A DNA stretch of 64,000 nucleotides from Pseudotabrizicola sp. (GTDB taxonomy: Bacteria; Pseudomonadota; Alphaproteobacteria; Rhodobacterales; Rhodobacteraceae): contig NZ_JAUSNR010000010.1 in assembly GCF_030656345.1 (NCBI RefSeq), positions 186,001-250,000 on the forward strand. Reading direction: 5' to 3'. Numbering within the stretch: position 1 is the stretch's first letter; each line of letters starts with the position of its first letter. A program made the translations under genes and the position numbers. Of the stretch, positions 28,000-46,529 are shown in pieces. Below the pieces are notes generated by a model, which saw only the letters and a program-made list of their open reading frames with translations, had not been told where the DNA came from and did not search any database.

Positions 28000-28184
28000 T
28001 TACAAAATCATTTTGCGCCAAGCCAAAGCAGGGCAAAGATCAGGCAGGCGATGACTTGGGTTGCGTGGAAGCGCCGCTTCCGATTTCCTGAAACCGGGTC
28101 AAGCCGCTGGACAGATACAAACCCGCCCCGACCAATGAGGGCAAGACAAACAAGAGCAATAACCCCAACATGGAGAAACCAAGA

Positions 28185-29198
28185 ATGACATTCCGCAAGA
28201 CATTCAAAAGCGCTGCGACAAGCGCTGCCGCGACTTTGGCCCTGTTGGCAGGCACCACCAGCGCCATGGCGCTGGACGAGGTGACGGTGGCCTATTTCAT
28301 GGAATGGCCGATGCCGTTCCAATACGCCAAGGTGCAAGGCACCTACGATGCCGAAATGGGCGTCAAGGTGAACTGGGTTGCGTTCGACACCGGCACCGCC
28401 ATGTCGGCGGCAATGGCGGCAGGCGATGTGCATTTCTCGGTAAGCCAGGGCGTGCCGCCCTTCGTGGTCGCCTCCAGCGCCGGGCAGGATCTGCAGATCC
28501 TCGATGTGGCGGTGTCCTATGCCGACAATGACAACTGCGTCGTCCAGAACGCGCTGGAAATCGACAAGGACAACGCCGGTGATCTGGCGGGCAAAAAGGT
28601 GGCCGTGCCACTGGGCACCGCTGCGCATTACGGGTTCCTGAAACAGATGGACCATTTCGGTGTCGATCTGGCCAGCCTTGAGATCATCGACATGGCCCCG
28701 CCGGATGGGGCTGCCGCCTTTACCCAAGGCTCGGTCGACATGTTCTGCGGTTGGGGCGGCAGCCTGCGCCGCGCGAAAGAGGCAGGCAATGTCCTGCTGA
28801 CCGGGGCGGAAAAAGAGGCACTTGGCATTCTGGTCTTTGACGTGACCTCGGCCCCCGCCGGATTTGTCGCGGAAAACCCTGATCTGGTGGCGAAGTTCCT
28901 GAAAGTCACGGCTGATGCCAACGCCATGTGGGCCGACCCTGCCAATCAGGCCACCATGCTGCCGGTGATCGCGGGCGATTCCGGCATGGACGAACAGGCC
29001 ACGGCGGAAACCATCGCCACCTTTGTGTTCCCCAGTGTCGAAGACCAGCTGTCGGCCAAATGGCTGGGCGGCGGCGCGCAGGAATTCATGCAAGGGGTGG
29101 CCGAGGTGTTTGTCGGCGCAGGCTCGATCCCGGCGGCGCTGCCAAGCTATGATACCACCGTCAACATCGCGCCACTGACCGCCGCAAACGGCATGTAA
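28185..29198 (+). CDS. tauA: Taurine ABC transporter substrate-binding protein
   Basis: The 337-aa periplasmic protein has a Sec signal peptide (FKSAATSAAATLALLAGTTSAMA, cut before LDEVTV) and an SsuA/TauA-type binding fold: FMEWPMPFQYAK, FSVSQGVPPFV, DMAPPDGAAAFTQGSVD. I use ATG 28185 with GGAG nine bases upstream, rather than the ATG at 28170. It starts the tauABC operon, divergent from tpa. Confidence 0.92.
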   Translation: MTFRKTFKSAATSAAATLALLAGTTSAMALDEVTVAYFMEWPMPFQYAKVQGTYDAEMGVKVNWVAFDTGTAMSAAMAAGDVHFSVSQGVPPFVVASSAGQDLQILDVAVSYADNDNCVVQNALEIDKDNAGDLAGKKVAVPLGTAAHYGFLKQMDHFGVDLASLEIIDMAPPDGAAAFTQGSVDMFCGWGGSLRRAKEAGNVLLTGAEKEALGILVFDVTSAPAGFVAENPDLVAKFLKVTADANAMWADPANQATMLPVIAGDSGMDEQATAETIATFVFPSVEDQLSAKWLGGGAQEFMQGVAEVFVGAGSIPAALPSYDTTVNIAPLTAANGM

Positions 29199-29248
29199 GA
29201 CCATCGGGCGGCCCGCAACGGGCCGCCCATCATTCCCCCGGAGGGCCT

Positions 29249-30055
29249 ATGTCCGGACTGATCATCGACAATATCTCGATGCGCTTTGACCTGCCCAATG
29301 GCGCGGCAGTGCAGGCCTTGCAGAACGTCTCGCTGGAGCTGAAACAGGGCGAGCTTCTCTCGGTGCTCGGCCCGTCGGGCTGCGGCAAGACCACGCTTTT
29401 GAACATCCTTGCAGGCTTTCTGGCCCCGACCGAAGGCCAGATCGTGCTGGGCGGCAAACGGGTGACCGGCCCCGGCCCCGAACGCGGCATGGTGTTTCAG
29501 CAAGGTGCCTTGTTCGAATGGATGAACGTGCGCCAGAACATCGACTTTGGCCCGCGCATGAAGGGCATGCCAAAGGCGGAACGTGACCAGATCACCGATC
29601 ATCTGCTGGACACCGTGGGCCTGCATGATTTCGGCGAAAAGGCGGTGTATGAATTGTCGGGCGGGATGCAGCAGCGCGTGGCGCTGGCCCGCTGCCTGGC
29701 CAATGACCCCGATGTGATTCTGATGGATGAACCCTTGGGCGCGCTGGACGCGCTGACGCGGGAAAAGATGCAGGGGCTGGTGCTGAAGCTGTGGAAGGAA
29801 ACCGGCAAGACCGTGGTCCTGATCACCCATTCGGTGGAAGAGGCGCTGCTGCTGGGCGAACGCCTGCTGGTGATGGCCCCGCGCCCGGGCCGGATCTTTC
29901 GCGAATACAACCTGCCCTTTGCCGAACGTGGCGTGAACATGGACCTGCGCGAGGTCAAGAAATCGAGCGGCTTTGCGGAAACGCGAGAGGAAATCCTGTC
30001 GATGATCTGGGGCATGGAAGAGGAAATCATGGGCAAGAAAGACGGTGCCGCATGA
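29249..30055 (+). CDS. tauB: Taurine ABC transporter ATP-binding protein
   Basis: The 268-aa ATPase has Walker A GPSGCGKTTLLN, Q-loop VFQQGALFEWM, signature LSGGMQQRVALAR and Walker B VILMDEPLGALD, as in nitrate/sulfonate/taurine importers. GGAGG lies six bases before the ATG. Its stop overlaps the tauC start (ATGATG). Confidence 0.94.
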   Translation: MSGLIIDNISMRFDLPNGAAVQALQNVSLELKQGELLSVLGPSGCGKTTLLNILAGFLAPTEGQIVLGGKRVTGPGPERGMVFQQGALFEWMNVRQNIDFGPRMKGMPKAERDQITDHLLDTVGLHDFGEKAVYELSGGMQQRVALARCLANDPDVILMDEPLGALDALTREKMQGLVLKLWKETGKTVVLITHSVEEALLLGERLLVMAPRPGRIFREYNLPFAERGVNMDLREVKKSSGFAETREEILSMIWGMEEEIMGKKDGAA

Positions 30056-31302
30056 TGGTTCTGGTGTTTTATGTCACGATCTTCGTGGTCTCGATGCTGG
30101 TCTGGGGCCGGATCAAGGCGCATCGCGGACGGCATGACTTTACCTCGCTCAAAACCGTGACCTTCGGCGATGAATCCGCCATCCAGCCTGACCGGGTGGC
30201 CAGCGTGATTTCGGTGCTGTCGGTGTTTCTGATCTGGGGGGCGTTTACCGGATCGAGCATCGTGCCGCTGCATGTGCCGGGGCCGTTTGTGGGTGAGGCC
30301 GGGTTCACCTACACCGCCCGCGCCCCGGATGGGGCCGAGGCGCAGGCCGAGGTGCGGATCACGGTGCATGAGGCGGGGGTGACCCCGGTGGCGCCGTCGG
30401 TGCCGCAGGCCAGCGGCTTTGCCCAAGGCGATGTGGCGGTGGTGCAGGCCTGGCGGTCGGTGCTGCTGCGCCCGGTGGAAAATGACGGTGAGGGGGCCGT
30501 GGTGGTGGCGATCAACGGCCAGCCCATTGCGGTTGATGACCGTGTGAACGTGACCGGCGGCACGGTCACGCTGACCCCGCGCGGGTCGCTCAACTTTCAG
30601 GCCGCGAAGGGCATGCAGATGGAGCCGATCTGGCTGCCCTCGCCCGAGGCGGTGGTGGCGCGCTTTGTGGAGATCTCGACCAACGGCTATCAGAACACTT
30701 CGCTCTGGGGGCATCTGGGGGCGTCGCTGGCGCGGGTGATGGCGGGGTTTGTGCTGGGGTCGCTCATTGGCATTCCGTTGGGCTATGCAATGGGGTTGTC
30801 GGGCTGGTTCCGCGGCTGGTTCGACCCGATTGTCGAATTCATGCGCCCCGTGCCGCCGCTGGCACTGATCCCGCTTGTGATCATCTGGTTCGGGATATGG
30901 GAGACCGGCAAGGTGGTGCTGCTGTTCCTCGCTGCCCTCTGGATCATGACCATCGCCGCGCGGTCCGGCGTGTCGGGGGTGAAGCTGTCAAAGATCCACG
31001 CGGCCTATTCGCTGGGGGCCAGCAAGCCGCAGATCCTGCGCCATGTGATCATCCCCAACTCGCTGCCAGACATTTTCACCGGCGCGCGGGTGGCGATGGG
31101 GGTGTGCTGGGGCACCGTGGTCGCGGCGGAACTGGTGGCGGCGCAGAAAGGGGCCGGGATGATGATCATCGCGGCGTCAAAATTCCAGCTGACCGATATT
31201 GTGGTGATGGGCATCATCCTGATCGGGATCATCGGCTATGGCATCGACATTCTGATGCGGATGGCTGAGAAAAAGCTGGTGCCTTGGAAGGGGCGCGGGT
31301 GA
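30052..31302 (+). CDS. tauC: Taurine ABC transporter permease with an inserted periplasmic beta domain
   Basis: At 416 aa it is about 140 residues longer than E. coli TauC. Residues 190-416 are the normal permease core (WLPSPEAVVARF, ASLARVMAGFVLGSLIGIPLGYAMGL, RPVPPLALIPLVIIWFGIWETGK, SLGASKPQILRHVIIPNSLPDIFTGARV). Ahead of it are two hydrophobic segments (about 4-20 and 47-67), and between the second and the core lies an insert of about 115 residues (75-190). The insert contains GFTYTARAPDG and PIAVDDRVNVTGGTVTLTPRG, which look like cadherin/Ig-like repeat strands. The core predicts taurine uptake; the insert's role is unknown. Confidence 0.9.
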   Translation: MMVLVFYVTIFVVSMLVWGRIKAHRGRHDFTSLKTVTFGDESAIQPDRVASVISVLSVFLIWGAFTGSSIVPLHVPGPFVGEAGFTYTARAPDGAEAQAEVRITVHEAGVTPVAPSVPQASGFAQGDVAVVQAWRSVLLRPVENDGEGAVVVAINGQPIAVDDRVNVTGGTVTLTPRGSLNFQAAKGMQMEPIWLPSPEAVVARFVEISTNGYQNTSLWGHLGASLARVMAGFVLGSLIGIPLGYAMGLSGWFRGWFDPIVEFMRPVPPLALIPLVIIWFGIWETGKVVLLFLAALWIMTIAARSGVSGVKLSKIHAAYSLGASKPQILRHVIIPNSLPDIFTGARVAMGVCWGTVVAAELVAAQKGAGMMIIAASKFQLTDIVVMGIILIGIIGYGIDILMRMAEKKLVPWKGRG

Positions 31303-31486: not shown

Positions 31487-32158
31487 TCAAGGCAGAATAT
31501 TGCTGGGAACCACCTCGCCCATATCAGGACGCGTCATTACGGTGGATCGGCGAGTCTCCATTTTTTCCCACCACCGCATCAGCGCAAAGTGACCGTCCAT
31601 GAGCTGCGCCCCCGCCTGAACCATCCGGAAGTACGCAATCATCGGAACAAGATAGAAATCCGCCAGACTGCAAGAGAGGCCGTTGAGAATTGTGCCCTCA
31701 TCCGCAATCTCGTCAAGCGCATGCAGAACTGGAATGCTCTCTCTTAGCCCGGTTTGCACTGCATCTGTGTCACCTCGCTCACCCTCAAGAGGGAGAAACA
31801 CTGCATTAGAAAACACATTCCTGATCAGTGCATTATACCCATAGGAATCTATGATGCCTATCACCTGCTGCATTCTGCCAACTGCAACATGCGCCGCAGG
31901 GGTCAGGGGCAGGTCTGGAAATTCCAGATCCAGATAACGCAGGATCGCAGCCGTCTCATAAAATTTGCAGCCATCATGAATGAGGATCGGGACGCGCCGA
32001 AACGGATGCAGTGTCAGCAGACTTTCCGAAGCGGAGTGATCGAAGGGATCCGCCTCAGAGTAAGTGAAATCCAGACCCTTTTCGATAAGCACGAGCTTTA
32101 CAATCCGTGTGTAGACACTGAATCTGTAGCCAATGAGCGTGATCTTGCGAGACTCCAT
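31487..32158 (-). CDS. Glutathione S-transferase family protein
   Basis: The 223-aa protein has the thioredoxin-fold N-domain of GSTs (ITLIGYRFSVYTRIVKLVLIEKGLDFTY, HPFRRVPILIHDGCKFYETAAILRYLD, the cis-Pro and Glu-Thr glutathione contacts) and a helical C-domain with GLSCSLADFYLVPMIAY. The substrate is not predictable. The gene and its flanks are visibly AT-richer than their neighbours, with codons rarely used elsewhere in the window, which suggests acquisition by transfer. No strong RBS is seen before ATG 32158. Confidence 0.88.
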   Translation of the reverse strand: MESRKITLIGYRFSVYTRIVKLVLIEKGLDFTYSEADPFDHSASESLLTLHPFRRVPILIHDGCKFYETAAILRYLDLEFPDLPLTPAAHVAVGRMQQVIGIIDSYGYNALIRNVFSNAVFLPLEGERGDTDAVQTGLRESIPVLHALDEIADEGTILNGLSCSLADFYLVPMIAYFRMVQAGAQLMDGHFALMRWWEKMETRRSTVMTRPDMGEVVPSNILP

Positions 32159-32215: not shown

Positions 32216-32554
32216 TCACCGCCCCACCATCCAGTTCACCCACTCCGCCAGCCGTGAGGGCGGCCCTCCCCGGGCCTCGGCGCGGTCGGCCAGTGCATAG
32301 GCCGCATATGTGCCGTGCAGGCCAAGCCAACGGAGGGGTTCGGGTTCCCATCTGCGAGGGGTCCGGTTGACCCATGGCAAGCGGGTGAGCGGATCGTCGG
32401 TGCCGAGGGTGAGGGCGGCGTGGGTGCGGCCCGCGAGGTTGGCGGTGGCGGTGCCGACCGATATAAACGTCGGTAGCAACGGCCACCCCAGCGCGGTGCT
32501 GCGAAGCCGGTCAGGGCAATCCGGTGCCCGCCCCACTAAGGACGTTTCCGGCAA
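32216..32554 (-). pseudogene. C-terminal remnant of an FAD-dependent oxidoreductase gene
   Basis: The frame ends in a tail (VGTATANLAGRTHAALTLG, DPLTRLPWVNRTPRRWEPEPLRWLG, ADRAEARGGPPSRLAEWVNWMVGR) that I recognise from the C-termini of DadA-like FAD oxidoreductases in alphaproteobacteria. Only about 80 residues are left; the preceding part has no FAD-binding fold and the frame simply stops. It is best read as a decayed gene fragment. The family name comes from memory of the tail motif. Confidence 0.5.
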
Positions 32555-32674: not shown

Positions 32675-34051
32675 ATGATCCCGGTAATGACACGTTTGCG
32701 TGGCGACGCGCTTTTGGCGCGGGTGATGCGCAGTTCTGCGTGGACCGCACTGGGCTACGGAGCCAGTCAGGTGTTGCGGCTGGCGTCGAACCTGATTCTG
32801 ACCAAGCTGTTGTTTCCCGAAGCCTTTGGCCTGATGGCGCTGGTGTCGGTGTTCATCGTCGGGCTGACGATGTTTTCCGATATGGGGACCGAGCCTGCGA
32901 TCCTGCAACACCGGCGCGGTGATGAGGCGGCGTTTCTGAACACGGCCTTTACCATTCAGGTCACGCGCGGCGCGGTGCTGTGGCTGGCCTCGGCGGCGAT
33001 TGCCTGGCCTGCGGCGCTGTTCTACGGCCAGCCGCTGCTGGCGATGATCCTGCCGGTGGCGGGGTTTTCGCTGTTTCTGCACGGGCTGGAACCTGCGCGG
33101 GTGCATACCGCCGGGCGGCATCTGCGGCTGGGGCGGCTGACGGCGCTGGATCTGATCTCGCAGGCGGTGGGGATTGCCAGCATGGTGCTGCTGGCCTGGG
33201 CCACGCAATCGGTCTGGGCGCTGGTGGCGGGGTGGATCGTGTCGTCTGGCACCCGGCTGGCGCTGGTCAGTTTTGCGCAGCCCGGGCCGCGCAGCCGGCT
33301 GGGCTGGGAGCCTGCGGCGGCCCGCGATCTGCTGCATTTCGGGGCCTGGCTGTTTTTGTCCACCGCCTGTGGCTTTCTGGTGGCGCAGGGCGACAAGGCT
33401 ATTCTGGGCAAATACCTGACGCTGGAGCAGCTGGGGCTGTATAACATCGGGTTTTTTCTGGCCTCGTTTCCGATGCTGCTGGGTCAGGCGATTGTGGGCC
33501 GCATCCTGATTCCGCTGTACCGCGAACGGCCGCCGGGGGCGTCGGCCTCAAATTTCGGGCGGTTGCGGCAGATGCGCTTTGCGCTGACCGGGGTGATCTT
33601 TGCGCTGCTGACGGTGATGGCCTTTGCGGGCGAGGGCATTGTCGATCTGATGTATGACCCGCGCTATTCCCCGGCGGGGGCCATTCTGGTGCTGATCGCG
33701 GTGGTGCAGATCCCGTCGGTGATCGGGATGACCTATGATCAGGCGGCGTTGGCGGCGGGGGACAGCCGGAGCTTTTTCCTGCTGACCGCGGCGCGGGCGC
33801 TGGGGCTGGTGTGCGGGCTGATCATCGGGGCGGAATATCTGGGGTTGGTGGGCGCGCTGGTCGGGCAGGCCATGGCGGCGATTGCGGTCTATCCGCTGCT
33901 GATCTGGCTGGCGCGGCGGCACGGGGCCTGGGACCCGCTGCATGACCTGAGCTTTGCCGCTCTGGGCGTGCTGATCGCGATGGGGGCGCTGTATGTGGAC
34001 AGCGGTGCGATCACCGAGCTGTCGACCCTGTTTGCACGGAGCGCGCCATGA
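32675..34051 (+). CDS. Wzx/MOP-type oligosaccharide flippase
   Basis: The 458-aa membrane protein has about 12 hydrophobic segments and the features of lipopolysaccharide/exopolysaccharide flippases (SSAWTALGYGASQVLRLASNLILTKLLFPEAFGLMALV, DMGTEPAILQHRRGDEAFLNT-like, GDKAILGKYLTLEQLGLYNIGFFLA). Such proteins move lipid-linked sugars across the inner membrane. I chose ATG 32675; a TTG frame opens at 32615 and ATG 32687 is also possible. The stop overlaps the start of the synthetase gene (ATGA), so the two proteins are made together. Confidence 0.85.
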   Translation: MIPVMTRLRGDALLARVMRSSAWTALGYGASQVLRLASNLILTKLLFPEAFGLMALVSVFIVGLTMFSDMGTEPAILQHRRGDEAAFLNTAFTIQVTRGAVLWLASAAIAWPAALFYGQPLLAMILPVAGFSLFLHGLEPARVHTAGRHLRLGRLTALDLISQAVGIASMVLLAWATQSVWALVAGWIVSSGTRLALVSFAQPGPRSRLGWEPAAARDLLHFGAWLFLSTACGFLVAQGDKAILGKYLTLEQLGLYNIGFFLASFPMLLGQAIVGRILIPLYRERPPGASASNFGRLRQMRFALTGVIFALLTVMAFAGEGIVDLMYDPRYSPAGAILVLIAVVQIPSVIGMTYDQAALAAGDSRSFFLLTAARALGLVCGLIIGAEYLGLVGALVGQAMAAIAVYPLLIWLARRHGAWDPLHDLSFAALGVLIAMGALYVDSGAITELSTLFARSAP

Positions 34052-37000
34052 CCCTGCACAGCCAGCGCAAACCCGAACAGGATGCGGCTTTGGTCGAACA
34101 TGCGCTGACCCCGCTGCAGCTGGGGATGGTGTACGAAAGCGTGCTGGCCGGGCGGCCTTGGGTCAATCTGGAGCAGATCGTCGTGCATCTGGACGACGAG
34201 CTGGTCACGGAAGACGCCCTGCGTCTGGCCTGGGCGCAGGTGGCCGCGCGGCATGAGGCGTTGCGGCTGTCTGTGCTGTGGCGCAAGCGGGTGGCCCCGG
34301 TGCAGGTGCTGCGCGACCGGGTTGAGGTGGCGCTGACGGTCGAGGACTGGTCCGCCCTGCCGCCCCGGCGTCTGGCGGGGATGCTCGACCAGTTTCTGGA
34401 GGCCGACCGCGAACAGGGCGTCGATCTGGAGGCGGCCCCGGCCTGGCGGGTGCTGCTGGCGCATCTGGGCCCGCGCCGGTCGGTGATGGTCTGGACCGTG
34501 CATCACGCGATGATCGACGGGCGCAGCATGGCCATCGTGCTGGACGAGGTGTTTGCCGCGCTGAGGGGCCGCGCCCTGCCCCCGGCCCCGGACGCCGGGT
34601 TTCTGGCCTATGCGACGGGCCTTGCCGCACAGGATACCGCCGCGTCAGAGGCATTCTTTGGCGGCTATCTGGCTGATTTTGATCAGCCCAACCCGCTGAC
34701 CGATGTGTCGGACGACAGCGGCATGACGCGCAAGCGCGTGCTGGAGCGGCGGCTGGACACCGCTCTGACACAAGCGCTAAGCGCGCGGGCCGGGGCGGCG
34801 GGGGCGACGCTGGCCACGATGGTGCAGGGGGCATGGGGCATGGTGGTGGCGCGCTGGACCGGGCGCAGCACGGCGGTATTCGGGGCCACCCGGTCGGGCC
34901 GCCAGATCGTGCCCGGCACCACGCGCACGGTTGGCTGCCTGATCAACACCCTGCCGGTGAAGGTGCAGATCAGCCCGCCGCGCCCGACCGACGCGTTTCT
35001 GGCAGAGCTGCGCCGCGACGCGCTGGTGCTGCGCGACCACGAACACGCGGCGCTGACCGACATCCGCCGCTGGTGCGGCCTACCCGGCACCGAAGCGCTG
35101 TTCGATTCCATGGTGATGTTCGAGCGCGCCTCGCTGAATGAAACCATGCGAGGTCTGGGGCCGGACTGGGCAAGCCGCCGGGTAGAGCTGCGCGAGGAAG
35201 GGGCCATGCCGCTGACGCTGGCGGCTTACGGCGATGCCGGGCTGCTGCTGATGCTGGAACATGACCCGGTGGCGGTGCCCGCGCCCAAGGCGCAGGCCAT
35301 GCTGGACCATATGGCCGACCTGCTGGCCGCGCTGGCCGCAGCCGGGGCTGCAACCCCGCTGACCGATCTGAACATGCTGTCGCCTCCGGAACAGGCGGCG
35401 CTGATCGCGCTGGCGCAACCTGACCGGATGCTGACCCCCGCCGACCCCTGCGTGGCGCTGCGCTTTTCCGAAATGGCACGGCAGCGCGGCAATGCGCTGG
35501 CGCTGCGCATGGTTGGCCGACACAATATTCTGGATTATCTGGCGCTGGACGCGCGGGCCGAAGAACTGGCCGGGCGGCTGGTGCAGGCCGGGGCCGGGCC
35601 GGGGCAGATCGTGGCGATCTGTCTGCCGCGCGGACCAGAATTCATCGTTGCCATGCTGGGCATCCTGCGGGCGGGCGCAGCCTTTTTGCCGCTGGACCCG
35701 ACCTATCCCGAAGCGTTGCGCGCCCATATGCTGACAGACAGCGGCACAACGCTGATGATCGCGCCCACCGACGGGGATGCGGCGGCGTTCCCCGCTGTGC
35801 GGGTCCTGTCGCCCGGTGCAGGTGCCGTGCGGGTGCCGGTGCCTGATTTCCGGCCGCCCGACCCGGACCGGCTGGCCTATGTGATCTATACTTCCGGCTC
35901 GACCGGGGTGCCCAAGGGGGTCAAGGTGCCGATGCGGGCGCTGTCGGCCCATGCCAGTGCCATGATCGCCGCCTTCGGGCTGACCCAATCGGACCGGGTG
36001 CTGCAATTTGCCAGCCTGTCGTTTGACGTGTCGATTGAAGAGATCATTCCCACCCTGCTGGCCGGGGCCAAGCTGGTCTTGCGCTCTGAGGCCATGGCGG
36101 GGTCGGTGGGGCTGTTTCTGGACGAGGTGCAACGCAGCGACATCACCGTGCTGAACCTGCCCACCGCCTTTTGGCATGTGCTGGTGGACGAGATGGCACG
36201 CGATGGCTTGCGGCTGCCGCCGACGGTGCGGCTGGTGATCGTGGGCGGCGAACAGATCAGCCCGCGCGCGCTGGCGACCTGGCAGCGGATCGCACCCGGT
36301 GTGCGCTGGATGAACGGCTACGGGCCGACCGAGACAACCATCACCTGCACGCTGTTTGAACCAAAGCCGCTGCCGAAAACCGGTGCAAAGCTGGTGCCGC
36401 CGTCGGCAACGGCACACGAGGATATTCCCATTGGCCGCCCGACCGCACATGCGCGGGCCTATGTGCTGGCCCCCGACGGCTCTTTCGCGCCGCCCGGCGC
36501 GCCGGGCGCGCTGTGGATCGGCGGGCCAGCGGTCAGCGATGGCTATATCGGGCACGCGGCGCAGACGGCCGAGGCGTTTGGCCCCGACCGCTTTGTGGGC
36601 ACCGGGCGGATTTACCGCACCGGCGATATGGCGCGCTGGCGGCCTGACGGCGGGCTGGCGTTTCTGGGACGGCGTGACCGGCAGGTCAAGCTGCGCGGTT
36701 TCCGCATCGACCTGCGCCACGTCGAACGCGCGCTGGAGCGTGAGACCGGGGTGGGCCGGGCGCTGGCGCATGTGCTGAACGCAGGCACCCCGGCGGCGCG
36801 GCTGGTGGTCTGGGTGGCGGGTGCCGACGGGCAGCCCCTGCCCGATGCCGTGGCGCTGCGGGCTGCGGTGGCCGAACAGCTGCCGCCGCATATGGTGCCC
36901 GCGATTGTGCCGGTGTCGCACTTTCCGCGCACGCCCGGCGGCAAGGTCGACATCAGCGCCCTGCCGGTGCCGGACGTGGCGGTGAGCGCCGGTGTGGCGG

Positions 37001-38019
37001 CAAGCGACGATCCGGTGGTGCAACAGATCGCCGGTCTGATGGCGCAGACGCTGGGGCTGGCGGCAGTGGGGCCGGACGATGATTTTCACGATCTGGGCGG
37101 GCATTCGCTGCTGGCGGTACAGCTGATCGGGCGGATCGAGGCGGCACTGGGCCACCGGCTGGGCGTGGCCGATCTGCACCGCCGCCCGACGCCGCGCGCG
37201 CTGGCCCGCGCGCTGGCGGCGGCGCAATCGGGGCCGCGCTATCTGATCCCGATCCAGCCACGCGGCAGCCAGCCGCCGCTGTTCGGCGTGCATGTGCTGG
37301 GCCGCAATGAGGAACATTTCCGCCCGCTGGCCGAGGCGCTGGGGCCGGATCAGCCGGTGTTCGGTCTGACGGTGGGCCTGCTGGCGCAAGATACACCGAT
37401 TGGCGTGCAGGACACTGCCCGCGCCTATGCCGATGAAATCATGCAGAACTTCCCGCATGGGCCGATCAGTCTGGCAGCGGTGTCGCTGGCCAGCTATGTC
37501 GCCTTTGATCTGGCGCAGCAGCTGATCCGCGCCGGGCGCGAGGTGCGGGTGATCGCCATGTTCGACAGCGCCGGTCCCGGCGGGCGGACGCGGCTTTCGG
37601 GCCGGGCCCGGGTGGGTGTGCATCTGCGCCAGCTGGTGCGGCGCGGGCCGTCGCATCTGGCGGGCATTGTCACCAACCGCTGGGCGGATGTGGTCTACCG
37701 CGCCAAGAAGCTGCGGATGCGGCTGCAGGCCGGGGGCGCGCCGATGACGGTGGACAGGTTCATGGTGGCGGCGGAACAGGCGGTGCAGGAGTATGAGGTC
37801 AAGCCGATCTATCGCCCGCTGACGATCTTCCGCGCCGAGGCGAATATCTTCGACAGCCCCGAAAGCACGCAGGACGGGCTGGGCTGGGCCCCGGTTGCTG
37901 CGTCGGGGTTCGAGGTGATCGACGTGCCGGGCGATCACCTGTCGATCCTGCAACCGCCGAATGTGGCGGTGCTGGCGCATCACCTGTCACGGCTGATGGC
38001 GGATCTGCCCGAAGCGTGA
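34048..38019 (+). CDS. Single-module nonribosomal peptide synthetase (C-A-T-TE)
   Basis: The 1323-aa protein has a condensation domain (HHAMIDG at about 150-156), an adenylation domain (YTSGSTGVPKG, NGYGPTETT, YRTGDMARW, GRRDRQVKLRGFRID, and PRTPGGKVD with the catalytic Lys), a thiolation domain (DDFHDLGGHSLLAVQL, phosphopantetheinyl Ser), and a thioesterase with Ser1146 (AAVSLAS), FDSAGPGG and GDHLSIL. It would activate one amino acid, join it to an acceptor or donor at the condensation domain, and release the product. No other synthetase, phosphopantetheinyl transferase or MbtH is nearby. The substrate code could not be read reliably. Confidence 0.93.
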   Translation: MTLHSQRKPEQDAALVEHALTPLQLGMVYESVLAGRPWVNLEQIVVHLDDELVTEDALRLAWAQVAARHEALRLSVLWRKRVAPVQVLRDRVEVALTVEDWSALPPRRLAGMLDQFLEADREQGVDLEAAPAWRVLLAHLGPRRSVMVWTVHHAMIDGRSMAIVLDEVFAALRGRALPPAPDAGFLAYATGLAAQDTAASEAFFGGYLADFDQPNPLTDVSDDSGMTRKRVLERRLDTALTQALSARAGAAGATLATMVQGAWGMVVARWTGRSTAVFGATRSGRQIVPGTTRTVGCLINTLPVKVQISPPRPTDAFLAELRRDALVLRDHEHAALTDIRRWCGLPGTEALFDSMVMFERASLNETMRGLGPDWASRRVELREEGAMPLTLAAYGDAGLLLMLEHDPVAVPAPKAQAMLDHMADLLAALAAAGAATPLTDLNMLSPPEQAALIALAQPDRMLTPADPCVALRFSEMARQRGNALALRMVGRHNILDYLALDARAEELAGRLVQAGAGPGQIVAICLPRGPEFIVAMLGILRAGAAFLPLDPTYPEALRAHMLTDSGTTLMIAPTDGDAAAFPAVRVLSPGAGAVRVPVPDFRPPDPDRLAYVIYTSGSTGVPKGVKVPMRALSAHASAMIAAFGLTQSDRVLQFASLSFDVSIEEIIPTLLAGAKLVLRSEAMAGSVGLFLDEVQRSDITVLNLPTAFWHVLVDEMARDGLRLPPTVRLVIVGGEQISPRALATWQRIAPGVRWMNGYGPTETTITCTLFEPKPLPKTGAKLVPPSATAHEDIPIGRPTAHARAYVLAPDGSFAPPGAPGALWIGGPAVSDGYIGHAAQTAEAFGPDRFVGTGRIYRTGDMARWRPDGGLAFLGRRDRQVKLRGFRIDLRHVERALERETGVGRALAHVLNAGTPAARLVVWVAGADGQPLPDAVALRAAVAEQLPPHMVPAIVPVSHFPRTPGGKVDISALPVPDVAVSAGVAASDDPVVQQIAGLMAQTLGLAAVGPDDDFHDLGGHSLLAVQLIGRIEAALGHRLGVADLHRRPTPRALARALAAAQSGPRYLIPIQPRGSQPPLFGVHVLGRNEEHFRPLAEALGPDQPVFGLTVGLLAQDTPIGVQDTARAYADEIMQNFPHGPISLAAVSLASYVAFDLAQQLIRAGREVRVIAMFDSAGPGGRTRLSGRARVGVHLRQLVRRGPSHLAGIVTNRWADVVYRAKKLRMRLQAGGAPMTVDRFMVAAEQAVQEYEVKPIYRPLTIFRAEANIFDSPESTQDGLGWAPVAASGFEVIDVPGDHLSILQPPNVAVLAHHLSRLMADLPEA

Positions 38020-38049
38020 CACTCTGCACAGGCAATGTTGGGGGATGCG

Positions 38050-39084
38050 ATGACGGTGGAACCATTCGGGCAGGTTGACGGGGTTGAGGTCGGGTCGGTG
38101 ATGCTGGGCCGCGCGGGCGGCGTGCAGGCGCGGGTCTGCGCTTACGGCGCGCGGCTGACAGAGCTGTGGGTGCCGGACCGGGCCGGGGTCTGCGCCGACA
38201 TTGTGCTGGGGCACGGCGATGTGGCGGGCTACGCGGCGACCAAGGCGTTTCTGGGCGCGACCTGTGGGCGGTATGCCAACCGCATCGCGGACGGGCGCTT
38301 TGTGCTGGACGGGCGGGTGGTGGATCTGGACCAGAATGAGGGGGTCAAGCATCTGCATGGCGGGCGGGCCGGGTTTGACCGCAAGACGTGGGACTTTGCT
38401 GACTTATCAGAGCGGTCGGTGACACTGACGGCGGTGTCGGCGGATGGCGAGATGGGCTATCCGGGGCGGCTGTCGATGCAGGTGCGCTACTGGCTGGATG
38501 AGGCCGACCGGCTGTGGATCGCGATGGAGGCGCAGACTGATGCAGCCACCGTGGTGAACATGGTGAACCACAGTTATTTCAACATGGTGGGGTCGGGGTC
38601 GGTGATGGGGCAAGATCTGCGATTGGGGGCCACGCATTTCACCCCGGTTGATGCCGATCTGATTCCCACGGGCGAGGTGCTGGCGGTGGCGGGCACCGCG
38701 TTTGATTTCACCGCGCGGCGCGAGATCGGGGCGGCTTTGCCATCAGATACGGGGTTTGACCACAACTGGTGCCTGACCGGGCCGCTGGAGCCGAAATGGG
38801 GCGAGGCGCTGCGGTTTTGTGCCGAGGCGGTGGATGCAGGCTCGGGGCGGCGGATGGAGGTCTGGACCAATGAGCCGGGGGTGCAGTTCTATACCGGGGC
38901 CTTTCTGGCGGGTGGGCTGCCGGGCAAGGATGGTGCCCCGATTGCGCCGTTCAGCGGCTTTACGCTGGAAACCCAGCGCTTTCCCGACAGCCCGAACCGG
39001 CCGCAGTTTCCCTCGGCCCGGCTGGAGCCGGGGCAAACGTACCGGCACCTGATGGCGTTTGAGTTTACGCCGCAGCCGGGCTGA
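38050..39084 (+). CDS. galM: Aldose 1-epimerase
   Basis: The 344-aa protein has the GalM fold signatures: GATCGRYANRIADGRF, LHGGRAGFDRKTWD with one catalytic His, VVNMVNHSYFNMVG with the other, and LETQRFPDSPNRPQFP carrying the catalytic Glu. It interconverts alpha and beta anomers of sugars. I use ATG 38050, preceded by GGGGGA, instead of ATG 38035. It follows the synthetase gene by 30 bp on the same strand and is likely co-transcribed. Confidence 0.88.
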   Translation: MTVEPFGQVDGVEVGSVMLGRAGGVQARVCAYGARLTELWVPDRAGVCADIVLGHGDVAGYAATKAFLGATCGRYANRIADGRFVLDGRVVDLDQNEGVKHLHGGRAGFDRKTWDFADLSERSVTLTAVSADGEMGYPGRLSMQVRYWLDEADRLWIAMEAQTDAATVVNMVNHSYFNMVGSGSVMGQDLRLGATHFTPVDADLIPTGEVLAVAGTAFDFTARREIGAALPSDTGFDHNWCLTGPLEPKWGEALRFCAEAVDAGSGRRMEVWTNEPGVQFYTGAFLAGGLPGKDGAPIAPFSGFTLETQRFPDSPNRPQFPSARLEPGQTYRHLMAFEFTPQPG

Positions 39085-44097: not shown

Positions 44098-45003
44098 TCA
44101 GCGCTGGAAGGTCATCGGCAGGGTAAAGGAATAGCTGGCATCGGTCAGCCCTGCCGGGGCGGCGGGGTAGCGGGCTGACTGCACCGCCCGCACCGCCGCC
44201 TGATCAAGGGCGGCATTGCCAGACGATTTCGCGATGGCCACCCCGGCCAGCTGGCCGGACCGGCTGACGGTCAGCCGCACGGTGACGGTGCCAGCGGCCC
44301 CACGGGCGGCGGCGGGATAGGCTTTGCGCCGTTCGATCCGGCTGCGGATCGAGGCCCCCCAACCGGCCTTGAGGTCGTTTTGCTGCGCGGCAGAGCGGGT
44401 GGCGGCCTGTGCGCTGCCGCTGTCACCGGCCTGCGCCCCGCCGCCGCTGCCTGCGGCGCGTTGCGCGGCCTGACCGGCAGAGGGGGTCTGCGGGGCAGGC
44501 TTTGCCGCTGCTTTCGGGGCCTCGGGGGGGTTGGGCCTGGCCAGATCGGCCGGGCGGGGTTTGGGCCGCTGTTCGGGTTCCGGTTCGGGTTCCGGCACCG
44601 GGTCTGGCTCTGGCTCTGGCAGGGGCTCCGGTTCGGGCGGTGGGGGGGGCGGCAGGCTGATATCAGCGTTCAGCGGGACCTCGGCCATGGGCGGCAGGGC
44701 CATGGCATCAGGGGCGGGCATCAGGGGCGGCGGCGGTTCGGTCACCGGGGTCAGCGGCGGCGGCGTCTCGGGCTGTACGGGCGGGGTCAACTCGGCCACG
44801 GGTTCCGCCTCCGGCGTGGGCGGGCGGTCCCATTCGGTGATCAGCTCGGCCAGCACCGCATCGGCGGCCTGCAGCGACACCAGATCGGTGCCCCCTGCCC
44901 CGGCAGACATCGCCCCTGCCTGCGGCGTGCGGATGGCAAAGACCGCGACATGCAGGCCAAGCGCGATGGCGATGGCCAGACCGGCGTGCAGACGCGCGCT
45001 CAT
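44098..45003 (-). CDS. tonB: TonB-family energy transducer
   Basis: The 301-aa protein has an N-terminal membrane anchor (LHAGLAIAIALGLHVAVFAI), a long Pro/Glu-rich spacer (about 70-170) that spans the periplasm, and a C-terminal TonB domain (YPAAARGAAGTVTVRLTVSRSGQLAGVAIAKSSGNAALDQAAVRAVQ). The ATG at 45003 overlaps the stop of the second exbD. It transmits the energy of the ExbBD motor to outer-membrane receptors, none of which is encoded in the window. Confidence 0.88.
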   Translation of the reverse strand: MSARLHAGLAIAIALGLHVAVFAIRTPQAGAMSAGAGGTDLVSLQAADAVLAELITEWDRPPTPEAEPVAELTPPVQPETPPPLTPVTEPPPPLMPAPDAMALPPMAEVPLNADISLPPPPPPEPEPLPEPEPDPVPEPEPEPEQRPKPRPADLARPNPPEAPKAAAKPAPQTPSAGQAAQRAAGSGGGAQAGDSGSAQAATRSAAQQNDLKAGWGASIRSRIERRKAYPAAARGAAGTVTVRLTVSRSGQLAGVAIAKSSGNAALDQAAVRAVQSARYPAAPAGLTDASYSFTLPMTFQR

Positions 45004-45422
45004 GGGGTGGCCCCCGGCTGGGCCACCAGCTCGATCTGCGCAAAGCCAAGCGGCGACAGACGCGGCAAGATCTGCGCCAGACGCGCGGCTGGCAGGGCGG
45101 TATCGGCGCGTAAGGTCAGGCGGGGCGGTTCCGCATCGCAATCGGTGGCGGTGCAATGGTCGGTGCGGGCGGCCTCAATCGCGGCAAGCGCCGGGTCGTC
45201 CAGCAGGTCGCGGTAGCCAAGCTGGCCGTCGGCGCTGATGAACAGGGTGAAATCGCCCTGTGCCTCGGCCTCGGCCAAGGCTTCGGGCGGGGTGACGGTG
45301 AAGGGTTCAGGCGGGGTCAGCCGCGCGGAGATCAGGAAAAAGATCAGCAGCAGGAAGACCACATTGATCATCGGCAGCAGGTTTTCCTGCGCGGGGCGGC
45401 GGGGGGGTGGCGAGAAATCCAT
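45000..45422 (-). CDS. exbD: ExbD/TolR-type biopolymer transport protein (second copy)
   Basis: The 140-aa protein has a short cytoplasmic N-terminus, a single membrane segment (MINVVFLLLIFFLIS) and a periplasmic domain. The charged Asp expected in that helix (typical PMIDVVFLLLVFF) is replaced by Asn (PMINVVFLLLIFF), which is notable because that Asp is the proton-carrying residue in the ExbD/TolR/MotB family. It lies between the first exbD and tonB, 4 bp from the former. Confidence 0.85.
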   Translation of the reverse strand: MDFSPPPRRPAQENLLPMINVVFLLLIFFLISARLTPPEPFTVTPPEALAEAEAQGDFTLFISADGQLGYRDLLDDPALAAIEAARTDHCTATDCDAEPPRLTLRADTALPAARLAQILPRLSPLGFAQIELVAQPGATP

Positions 45423-45426
45423 GGCG

Positions 45427-45804
45427 CTATTCCACCAGAACCAGCCGGGTAAAGCCCGCGCCGGTCAGCCGGTCCATCACCGCGACCAGCGCCTGCAGAT
45501 CGGCCCCGTCGCCCGCGCGCAGGATGATGGCATCGCCGGGGGTTTCGGTCAGCACGCGCAGCGCTTCGGCCAGCGCATCGGGCGCGATGTCGATGCCGTT
45601 GAGCCGCAGGCTGTCGCCTGACAGGTCGACCAGCCGCGGCGGGCCGGAATAGGCGGTGCCGCCGCCTGCGACCGACAAAGGCAGTGCCCGGTCAGACCCG
45701 AAGCGCGAGGCGAGCATGAAGAACACCAGCAGCAGAAAGACCACGTCGATCATCGGCGTCAGGTTGGGCCGCCTGCGCGGACGGTCTGTCGCAAACGAGA
45801 TCAT
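45427..45804 (-). CDS. exbD: ExbD/TolR-type biopolymer transport protein (first copy)
   Basis: The 125-aa protein has RPNLTPMIDVVFLLLVFFMLAS, the classic ExbD membrane helix with its proton-carrying Asp, and a periplasmic domain with LRLNGIDI and ILRAGDGADLQALVAVMDRL. Its ATG overlaps the exbB stop by 4 bp. With exbB it forms the proton-driven motor. Confidence 0.9.
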   Translation of the reverse strand: MISFATDRPRRRPNLTPMIDVVFLLLVFFMLASRFGSDRALPLSVAGGGTAYSGPPRLVDLSGDSLRLNGIDIAPDALAEALRVLTETPGDAIILRAGDGADLQALVAVMDRLTGAGFTRLVLVE

Positions 45805-46529
45805 TCGGCGGCGCGGGTGACAGAAATCGGGCTGGCAGCATTGGGGGCGGCATTACCCGGCGCCACGCGCGCGCCATGCAGGATGCGGGTCGCCGAATCC
45901 TCCATATCATGGCGCAAGCCGTCGACCACGCTTTCAAACCATGTCAGCGCGACCGAGGCCGGGATCGCCACGGCCATGCCTGCGGCTGTGGTCAGAAGCG
46001 CCTCCCATATCCCACCGGCAAGGGCGGCGGGGTCGGCGCGCGACCCGGCCTCTTGCAATGCCTGAAAGGCGGCGATCATGCCGGTGACGGTGCCCAGAAG
46101 GCCCAGCAGCGGGCCGATGGTCGCGGCCAGTTCCAGCCCGCGCAGGCCGGTGCGGGCGCGTGACAACAGGCCACGGGCGACGCGGGCGGTCTCCGCCTCG
46201 GCCCCGGTCTGGTCCAGCCCGGGGTTCATCGCGGCCTGCATCGCGGCCAGCGCCAGACGGGCGCGCAACGACCCGCGCTTGTGCAGGGCCGCCATCGCGG
46301 CATCGGTCTGGCCCGCCGCCCAAAGGTCCAGCGCGCGGGCGGTGTGGCGGCCACCCGACCATGCGCCGAACGTAAGCAGGCGCATCACCTTCCACAGGAT
46401 CAGCGCAATGGTCAGCACGGACAGCACCGCAATGGCCCACATCGCCGGGCCGCCCATGGCGACAAACCCGAGCATCTCGGCGAAGCTGTCAGAAAAGGAT
46501 GCGGCAAGGGTGGCGGTCTGGTTTTCCAT
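45801..46529 (-). CDS. exbB: ExbB/TolQ/MotA-family proton channel protein
   Basis: The 242-aa protein has three membrane segments: about 25-45 (GPAMWAIAVLSVLTIALILWKV) and two in the C-terminal half (LELAATIGPLLGLLGTVTGMI and LLTTAAGMAVAIPASVALTWF), with the family GxxxGL and Thr features. It heads the exbB-exbD-exbD-tonB operon. The last ~30 residues extend beyond the usual end and are cytoplasmic. Confidence 0.9.
   Translation of the reverse strand: MENQTATLAASFSDSFAEMLGFVAMGGPAMWAIAVLSVLTIALILWKVMRLLTFGAWSGGRHTARALDLWAAGQTDAAMAALHKRGSLRARLALAAMQAAMNPGLDQTGAEAETARVARGLLSRARTGLRGLELAATIGPLLGLLGTVTGMIAAFQALQEAGSRADPAALAGGIWEALLTTAAGMAVAIPASVALTWFESVVDGLRHDMEDSATRILHGARVAPGNAAPNAASPISVTRAAE

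Follow-up and report, generated by a model that had tools for sequence, protein, structure and literature searches.

A Wzx-type flippase gene located away from the exopolysaccharide locus and coupled to a one-module peptide synthetase in Pseudotabrizicola and other Rhodobacteraceae

A stretch of 64,000 nucleotides from Pseudotabrizicola sp. (Rhodobacteraceae; assembly GCF_030656345.1, contig NZ_JAUSNR010000010.1, positions 186,001 to 250,000), referred to here as the window, carries a gene for a flippase of the Wzx/PST type that overlaps the start of a gene for a non-ribosomal peptide synthetase (NRPS) with a single condensation, adenylation, thiolation and thioesterase (C-A-T-TE) module. The pair is a real, conserved and partly explained unit. 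The central result is that in the paired lineages examined the flippase gene has left the exopolysaccharide (EPS) locus and sits with the NRPS gene. According to the preferred reading, to which a probability of about 0.53 is assigned, the flippase is the displaced Wzx of the EPS, and the NRPS adds an optional, amino-acid-containing decoration to the lipid-linked unit. That the flippase serves as Wzx of the EPS encoded on another contig of the same genome (C56) is well supported and quite probable, while a role of the NRPS as decorator of that EPS is slightly favoured. Genomes, contigs and loci are designated below by G, C and L, G000 being the window's own genome.

Architecture and conservation of the flippase-NRPS pair

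The two genes and the domains of the NRPS are located in the window as follows.

32675-34051, plus strand: flippase of the MOP superfamily, Wzx/PST type; 458 aa, intact open reading frame, Pfam PF13440 and PF01943
34048-34051, plus strand: ATGA stop/start overlap of the flippase and NRPS genes, read from the sequence
34048-38019, plus strand: one-module NRPS, C-A-T-TE; 1323 aa, intact open reading frame, Pfam domains
34102-35403, plus strand: condensation domain (Pfam), aa 19-452; HHxxxDG intact (VHHAMIDG)
35467-36546, plus strand: adenylation domain, Pfam stretch aa 474-833; code DVENIGGITK, its last residue being K966
37021-37215, plus strand: thiolation (carrier) domain, aa 992-1056; Pfam PP-binding, serine in GGHS
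37276-37968, plus strand: thioesterase domain, aa 1077-1307; Pfam Thioesterase, AVSLA in place of GxSxG

The first-pass annotation of this sequence had described a Wzx-like flippase fused to a C-A-T-TE synthetase through the ATGA overlap. Flippase, synthetase and overlap are all borne out by intact reading frames and Pfam domains, but "fused" was too strong a word, since the genes overlap and two proteins are encoded. The assignment of the flippase to the lipid-linked-sugar (Wzx/PST) kind is supported by its matches to PF13440 (Polysacc_synt_3, 156.8 bits) and PF01943 (Polysacc_synt, 66.5 bits). A MATE drug pump, the alternative named in that annotation, was dropped, because a Pfam search at 1e-3 gave no match to the MATE family and the Polysacc_synt families were found instead. 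The best NCBIfam models were the PRK10459 MOP flippase and TuaB, both far under the cut-off, and no relative was found among PDB sequences at E 0.1. A simple hydrophobicity plot of the protein gave 15 overlapping peaks; flippases of the Wzx/PST branch of the MOP superfamily have about 12-14 transmembrane helices.

The NRPS was found in 13 of the 16 genus genomes, and in all 12 loci other than that of the window the flippase gene lies directly upstream on the same strand. The search in other genomes that the first-pass annotation had proposed thus yielded an adjacent pair in 13 of the 16 genus genomes and, furthermore, in G445 and G357, which represent two other genera and both have the 4-base overlap; a pair confined to Pseudotabrizicola is ruled out by these two. 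Overall, 12 of the 15 pairs overlap by 4 bases, and gaps of 20, 21 and 53 bases separate the genes in the remaining three. Relatives of the NRPS with 52-86% identity occur on contigs of Pseudotabrizicola and other Rhodobacteraceae. In a family sample of 394 Rhodobacteraceae genomes, one per genus except for one pair, 14 NRPS matches were obtained at E <= 1e-140, of which 12 are one-module orthologues; the longer synthetases of G317 and G372, with partial matches at 38-39%, were dropped, while that of G413 was kept in the counts although cut by a contig end. The distant NRPSs of G023, G061 and G087 were likewise dropped from the genus-level search, and L046 (Saccharothrix) was not included among the orthologues. 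Across the class, a sample of 385 genomes gave matches at E <= 1e-150 only in the own genome and in G130, both of Rhodobacteraceae.

On the protein trees of both the flippase and the NRPS, the pairs occupy three separate places. Well-supported branches of the NRPS tree force at least three changes, one gain with two losses also amounting to three, and a single origin of the pairing remains compatible with the flippase tree. Called genes supplied 30 rows of the latter tree and tblastn alignments two (G206, G017); its EPS label on G169 was assigned before the locus check, which did not bear it out. Since the adjacency recurs in three separate lineages, it is more than chance.

In G004, G014 and G008 a conserved protein of 690-750 aa is encoded directly upstream of the flippase gene (L027:13603-15867, L028:13296-15509 and L030:5809-7884, minus strand). 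It gave no match in Pfam, nor did the G004 copy in NCBIfam at 1e-10 or the G014 copy among PDB sequences; the AlphaFold model of this protein is poor (mean pLDDT 41).

The exopolysaccharide locus and the displacement of the flippase

The own genome carries an EPS locus of the Wzx/Wzy type on another contig (G000:C56 277893-300609; L115, L116). It contains genes for glycosyltransferases of families GT4 (two) and GT2 (two), Wzz, a tyrosine-kinase-like protein, WecG (located by tblastn), a polymerase-like protein assigned by position only and with no Pfam or NCBIfam match, a polyketide synthase (PKS), a second, unusual NRPS and a phosphopantetheinyl transferase (PPTase). The PKS has the layout KS-AT-KR-DH-ACP-TE. 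The second enzyme, called here the EPS-locus NRPS, consists of a formyltransferase (FT), an A domain, a luciferase-like MOX domain of the MupA/Atu3671 family and a T domain; its A code, read by eye as DILQMGMIWK, is identical in 9 of 10 positions to DILQLGMIWK, which the accessible text of PMC12283262 gives as the code of glycine domains carrying a MOX insert. EPS loci with PKS, FT-A-MOX-T NRPS and PPTase genes were also seen in L072-L084 and L130-L133.

Homologues of the flippase were found in 145 of the 394 family genomes at 1e-40 and the EPS-locus NRPS in 140, with both present in 131 (Fisher p about 1e-75, relatedness uncorrected) and lying within 40 kb of each other in 98 of these 131. 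When 16 flippase loci of other genera (L069-L084) were inspected, chosen as best flippase matches together with some NRPS genomes and not drawn at random, the flippase lay among EPS genes in 15, that is, among genes for GT4, GT2, exoY-type Bac_transf, Wzz, tyrosine-kinase-like, WecG, SGNH-like or rml products. In several of these 15, PKS, unusual NRPS and PPTase genes occupy the same stretch.

In the paired lineages the picture is a different one. The EPS loci of G000, G009, G011, G014, G001, G445 and G357, spanning 40-55 kb each, gave no tblastn match at 1e-5 to any of 30 flippase homologues (0 of 7); those of the other eight paired genus genomes stood outside this comparison. Three genomes of at least 99% completeness (G011, G005 and G001) have no PF13440 match besides the NRPS-coupled flippase. 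Three genus genomes are without the one-module NRPS: G003 (99% complete), which is also without the EPS-locus NRPS, and G007 and G010 (82-85% complete), which have the latter.

The presence of a PKS, a glycine-type A-MOX NRPS and a PPTase in the EPS locus, together with a MOX domain family (TIGR04020) named after secondary-metabolite enzymes, would also fit a joint product of these enzymes and the one-module NRPS, namely a glycosylated or lipid-anchored peptide-polyketide translocated by the MOP flippase and unconnected with EPS decoration. The same locus, however, holds Wzz, tyrosine-kinase-like, WecG and polymerase-like genes and several glycosyltransferases, and exoYC of the same locus type makes matrix EPS in Phaeobacter, as far as the accessible text of PMC10984933 tells; such a product is regarded as decidedly improbable.

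Domain chemistry and surroundings of the one-module NRPS

Pfam placed Condensation, AMP-binding, PP-binding and Thioesterase domains in this order in the window NRPS, which is the sole Condensation-domain match in its genome. The HHxxxDG motif, correctly reported as intact in the first-pass annotation, is kept in 24 of 25 orthologues, the remaining one (G445) having SHxxxDG. The T serine, the Ser, Asp and His of the TE and the A10 lysine are each present in 25 of 25, and the full GxSxG motif of the TE in 1 of 25. An activating PPTase is encoded in the own genome (L116:17080-17709; PF17837 and PF01648).

The A-domain code, whose prediction had been proposed, was obtained as DVENIGGITK by alignment to the published GrsA positions. 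The pattern D[VI]EN[IV]G[GS][IV]TK is present in 25 of 25 aligned orthologues with overall identities of 43-86%. The nearest printed code found, with 7 of 10 residues identical, is DVENAGVVTK of OciB-A4, the Ahp module of cyanopeptolin (Table 1 of PMC2533009); OciB-A4, in contrast, belongs to a multi-module peptide synthetase for which the accessible text describes no glycan link. With this code as the nearest one, a five-carbon amino acid such as glutamine or ornithine is tentatively expected as substrate, at low confidence. A basic amino acid, suggested by an ornithine-type code, was dropped in favour of the closer Ahp code, and a literature search with the beginning of the exact window code found nothing. 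As stated in the first-pass annotation, no upstream module exists in cis; a separate FT-A-MOX-T NRPS and a PKS are nevertheless encoded in the EPS locus and might provide carrier-bound donors to the C domain in trans.

Each of the 12 family genomes that have the one-module NRPS also has the EPS-locus NRPS (hypergeometric p about 8e-6 with one genome per genus). The flippase is present in 11 of them (p about 3e-4), the exception being G413, which is 77% complete and gave no flippase match; neither p value takes relatedness into account. One NRPS copy lies beside the flippase or glycan genes in 8 of the 12. It adjoins the flippase in G000, G009, G445 and G357; in G181 it forms part of the EPS cluster, adjacent to the EPS-locus NRPS and at a distance of 3.6 kb from the flippase; in G276 the first of the two copies neighbours a GT4b gene of the EPS set and two SGNH-like genes; the G413 NRPS is beside a GT4 gene 51% identical to that beside the G181 NRPS; and in G130 the NRPS lies among plasmid polysaccharide genes. 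G276 (L066, L067) has two copies of the one-module NRPS, both apart from the flippase.

The genes flanking the pair in the window are as follows.

38035-39084, plus strand: aldose 1-epimerase, GalM-like, PF01263 (Aldose_epim); neighbour in the closest species only, outside the conserved unit
32219-32467, minus strand: remnant of a DAO-family oxidoreductase, last 83 residues; outside the system
31487-32158, minus strand: glutathione S-transferase (GST)-like gene (Pfam); outside the system

The epimerase gene had been placed 30 bp after the NRPS, which holds for an in-frame start at 38050; the start at 38035 lies 15 bases past the NRPS stop. It adjoins the NRPS in 7 of the 13 genus loci (the own locus and 6 of the 12 others) and is absent beside the G445 and G357 pairs, so that its earlier inclusion in the unit was abandoned and a core role is ruled out; the G008 locus ends 0.3 kb past the NRPS, before the position at which the epimerase could be scored. 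Both bordering genes were correctly characterized in the first-pass annotation. The oxidase remnant is 89% identical to residues 377-459 of an intact copy of 459 aa in a congener locus (L021), and the GST gene is AT-rich, its GC content of 52.2% being lower than that of the flippase gene (66.1%), the NRPS gene (69.8%) and the window (65.0%); among the loci compared the GST gene occurs in this strain only, none of 23 related loci giving a tblastn match at 1e-6. The accessory site proposed there for the pair is not a random one: tauABC (a taurine-type ABC transporter; window 28170-31302) is kept upstream of the pair in 9 of the 12 other genus loci. A group at 44098-46529 of the window resembles, by eye, TonB-ExbB-ExbD with two ExbD-like genes. 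The neighbours of the NRPS vary, with amino-acid ABC genes in Phaeobacter, iron/haem-type genes in G013 and the epimerase in the closest species; in G013, HemS/ChuX, periplasmic-binding and FecCD genes come after the NRPS on the same strand (L025:1-2793).

These G013 genes and the C-A-T-TE layout, which is as in EntF (model score 276.9 bits), would suit an NRPS acting as the last module of a siderophore pathway. That score is, however, far under the EntF cut-off of 2400 bits, a second Condensation-domain match is absent from the own genome, the matches to ornithine/lysine N-hydroxylases were partial and weak, and iron/haem genes adjoin the NRPS in G013 only, among the loci whose neighbours were scanned; a siderophore is very improbable.

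Outside the genome samples, the NRPS matched 52 Phaeobacter plasmid records, the Phaeobacter rows among the best 25 being 68-70 kb in size. Plasmid pGal_F69 carries an orthologue with the same A code adjoining amino-acid ABC transporter genes, and to one side of it are YjbF/YjbH, sugar-transferase, OPX and rml genes, to the other pyruvyl-transferase and GT4 genes. The ABC transporter genes are directly downstream of the NRPS at L129:17808-20031 (Phaeobacter plasmid) and, judged from like position, at L059:5304-7527 (G130). The G130 plasmid contig has 80-95% DNA identity to pGal_F69 in the aligned pieces, which indicates a relative of Phaeobacter. According to the accessible text of PMC4062626, P. 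inhibens has three NRPSs; one is encoded on plasmids of 69 and 71 kb and, in DSM 17395, on the chromosome (PGA1_c28490), and another is PGA1_c05350. The one-module enzyme has the tags Inhi_3983, PGA2_71p110 and PGA1_c28490 there, with no function given in that text; going by replicon size, these tags probably denote the pGal_F69-type plasmid gene.

Deletion of the chromosomal exoY (exoYC) of P. inhibens DSM 17395 lowers attachment, galactose-lectin-stained matrix EPS and algal aggregation (Lipsman et al. 2024, PMC10984933, accessible text). The gene is printed there under two tags, PGA1_c05260 (Table 1) and PGA1_c05320 (Methods). In G130, exoY and the EPS-locus NRPS are nine genes apart, as are tags c05260 and c05350, and by our own mapping PGA1_c05350 is the EPS-locus NRPS. 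Furthermore, the published exoYC primers map into exoY of L078 (G130) and L081 (G053) with 8 mismatches in 39 positions and the same 181-base span, while they reached no better than 12 mismatches in L079, L077, L072 and L076; the exoYP control primers gave 12 mismatches at best over the six loci tried. The DSM 17395 PKS is printed as PGA1_c04930, far from the NRPS PGA1_c05350, and in strain T5 the PKS and NRPS are two tags apart (PMC4062626, accessible text).

Weighing a decoration of the exopolysaccharide

The link to a glycan proposed in the first-pass annotation exists, although it runs mainly through the EPS locus outside the window, and the site at which the NRPS product is attached belongs to the proposal made here. 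In that proposal the flippase gene has moved out of the EPS locus and become translationally coupled to the one-module NRPS. After activation by the PPTase, the NRPS would load a single amino acid matching the code DVENIGGITK; its C domain would join this to a donor on a carrier, for which the unlinked FT-A-MOX-T and PKS proteins are a plausible source, and the TE would transfer the product onto a sugar of the repeat unit while this is linked to undecaprenyl. The flippase would then turn the decorated unit outward, and the coupling would keep the two processes in step. Architecture, conservation, displacement and co-occurrence are seen directly in the sequences; which amino acid, donor and acceptor sugar are involved, and in what order the steps follow, we infer.

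Several observations weigh against this proposal. With respect to the chemistry, the TE departs from the canonical GxSxG, and the first His of HHxxxDG is no longer present in G445. The window's own assembly has an estimated contamination of 7.8%; the same picture is seen in G009, G011, G014 and G001 (0-2% contamination). With respect to the role as Wzx, one of the 16 flippase loci is an exception: in the 16.7-kb locus of G169 the EPS set is represented by an SGNH-like gene alone. Six genus genomes at least 99% complete (G000, G002, G004, G006, G009, G014) have one or two further PF13440 genes, and another Wzx could therefore serve the EPS there; those of the own genome are on C43, beside a second, weaker Wzz match, and on C32. 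A gene for the priming transferase exoY is lacking in four EPS loci (G000, G009, G011 and G357) and present in three (G014, G001 and G445), other PF02397 genes being found in G000 and other genus genomes. G013 (87% complete) has the pair with no EPS-locus NRPS match at 1e-100, and it does have Wzz and exoY matches. As to the NRPS, no gene of the EPS set was seen in the stretch read around it in G053, G254, G232, G402 and for the second copy of G276, and 128 of the 140 genomes with the EPS-locus NRPS are without the one-module NRPS at 1e-140, which makes the latter at most an optional decoration. To these are added displaced flippases that have no one-module NRPS: they stand alone in G049, G233 and G055 (3 of the 18 scored), beside rml genes in G110 and beside a galE-like gene in G318. 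Separately, the absence of exoY from the EPS locus is seen in the window's own subclade (G000, G009, G011; L115, L118, L126) and G357.

These flippases come from a set of 26 genomes that have no one-module NRPS and in which flippase and EPS-locus NRPS are both present but not located within 40 kb of each other. Eighteen of them were scored and two more, G418 and G169, inspected separately, leaving 6 aside. In 13 of the 18 the flippase lies beside other genes of the EPS set, as in a split locus. The flippase thus leaves the EPS genes also without the NRPS, so that displacement is not peculiar to the NRPS, and the idea that it occurs only together with the NRPS is ruled out. The NRPS is nonetheless rare (12 of 394) and coupled to a displaced flippase in three lineages. 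In G318 (L153:9960-12286) the flippase gene overlaps by 4 bases the galE-like epimerase gene, named by eye from the start of its sequence, and this is another coupling of a flippase of the same family to a second gene.

Relocation of flippases without the NRPS, and the NRPS copies lying apart from EPS-set genes in G053, G254, G232, G402 and one copy of G276, would agree with a flippase that is the displaced Wzx of the EPS and an NRPS that makes a small free product unrelated to the glycan, the two sharing expression only, for example in a surface-attached life stage. This we consider unlikely, for the same two genes are coupled in three lineages, the NRPS of the family sample occurs only where the EPS-locus NRPS is also present (12 of 12), and it lies among polysaccharide genes in G181, G276, G413, G130 and Phaeobacter.

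An amino-acid decoration of the EPS would have partial parallels. In the D-alanylation of teichoic acids, DltA and DltC carry out thiotemplate activation of one amino acid that decorates a cell-surface glycan polymer. The window NRPS differs in being a full C-A-T-TE module, and the DltA model gave 186.5 bits against a cut-off of 476. The Sinorhizobium rkpA gene, PKS/FAS-like, acts in K-antigen synthesis and places a polyketide-type enzyme in a polysaccharide pathway; we know of no NRPS coupled to a flippase in that system. The one-module NRPS of Phaeobacter has the same A code and plasmid polysaccharide surroundings but no adjoining flippase. Another close comparison is the exoYC cluster of P. 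inhibens DSM 17395, of the same locus type as far as the accessible text of PMC10984933 tells, with exoY, glycosyltransferase, Wzx, Wzy and Wzz functions. Among its features, Wzz, glycosyltransferases, WecG, a tyrosine-kinase-like and a polymerase-like gene are present in the own genome of the window, whereas exoY and Wzx are absent from the locus; unlike in P. inhibens, the flippase gene of the window's genus is found outside it, coupled to that of the NRPS.

The EPS locus with PKS and NRPS genes, its NRPS occurring in about one third of the sampled Rhodobacteraceae genomes, outweighs the pair in importance. A wider proposal, put forward tentatively and as possible rather than probable, is that about one third of Rhodobacteraceae genera make a Wzx/Wzy EPS with a PKS/NRPS-built group on the repeat unit, and that the one-module NRPS is a movable add-on that changes the decoration and has repeatedly captured the flippase through translational coupling, each decorated unit thereby being flipped as soon as it is produced. 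Searches of the open-access literature, judged by titles and abstract openings, brought up no paper describing a link between thiotemplate enzymes and EPS in Rhodobacteraceae, and the main text of PMC10984933 mentions neither NRPS nor polyketide. The accessible text of that article reports that no sugar-modification genes were detected around the P. inhibens EPS clusters; if the preferred reading is true, the PKS and NRPS genes would be direct candidates for EPS modification in Phaeobacter. Enzymes of the thiotemplate type, commonly taken to produce unknown secondary metabolites, would then be decorators of a matrix polysaccharide that may be widespread in Rhodobacteraceae.

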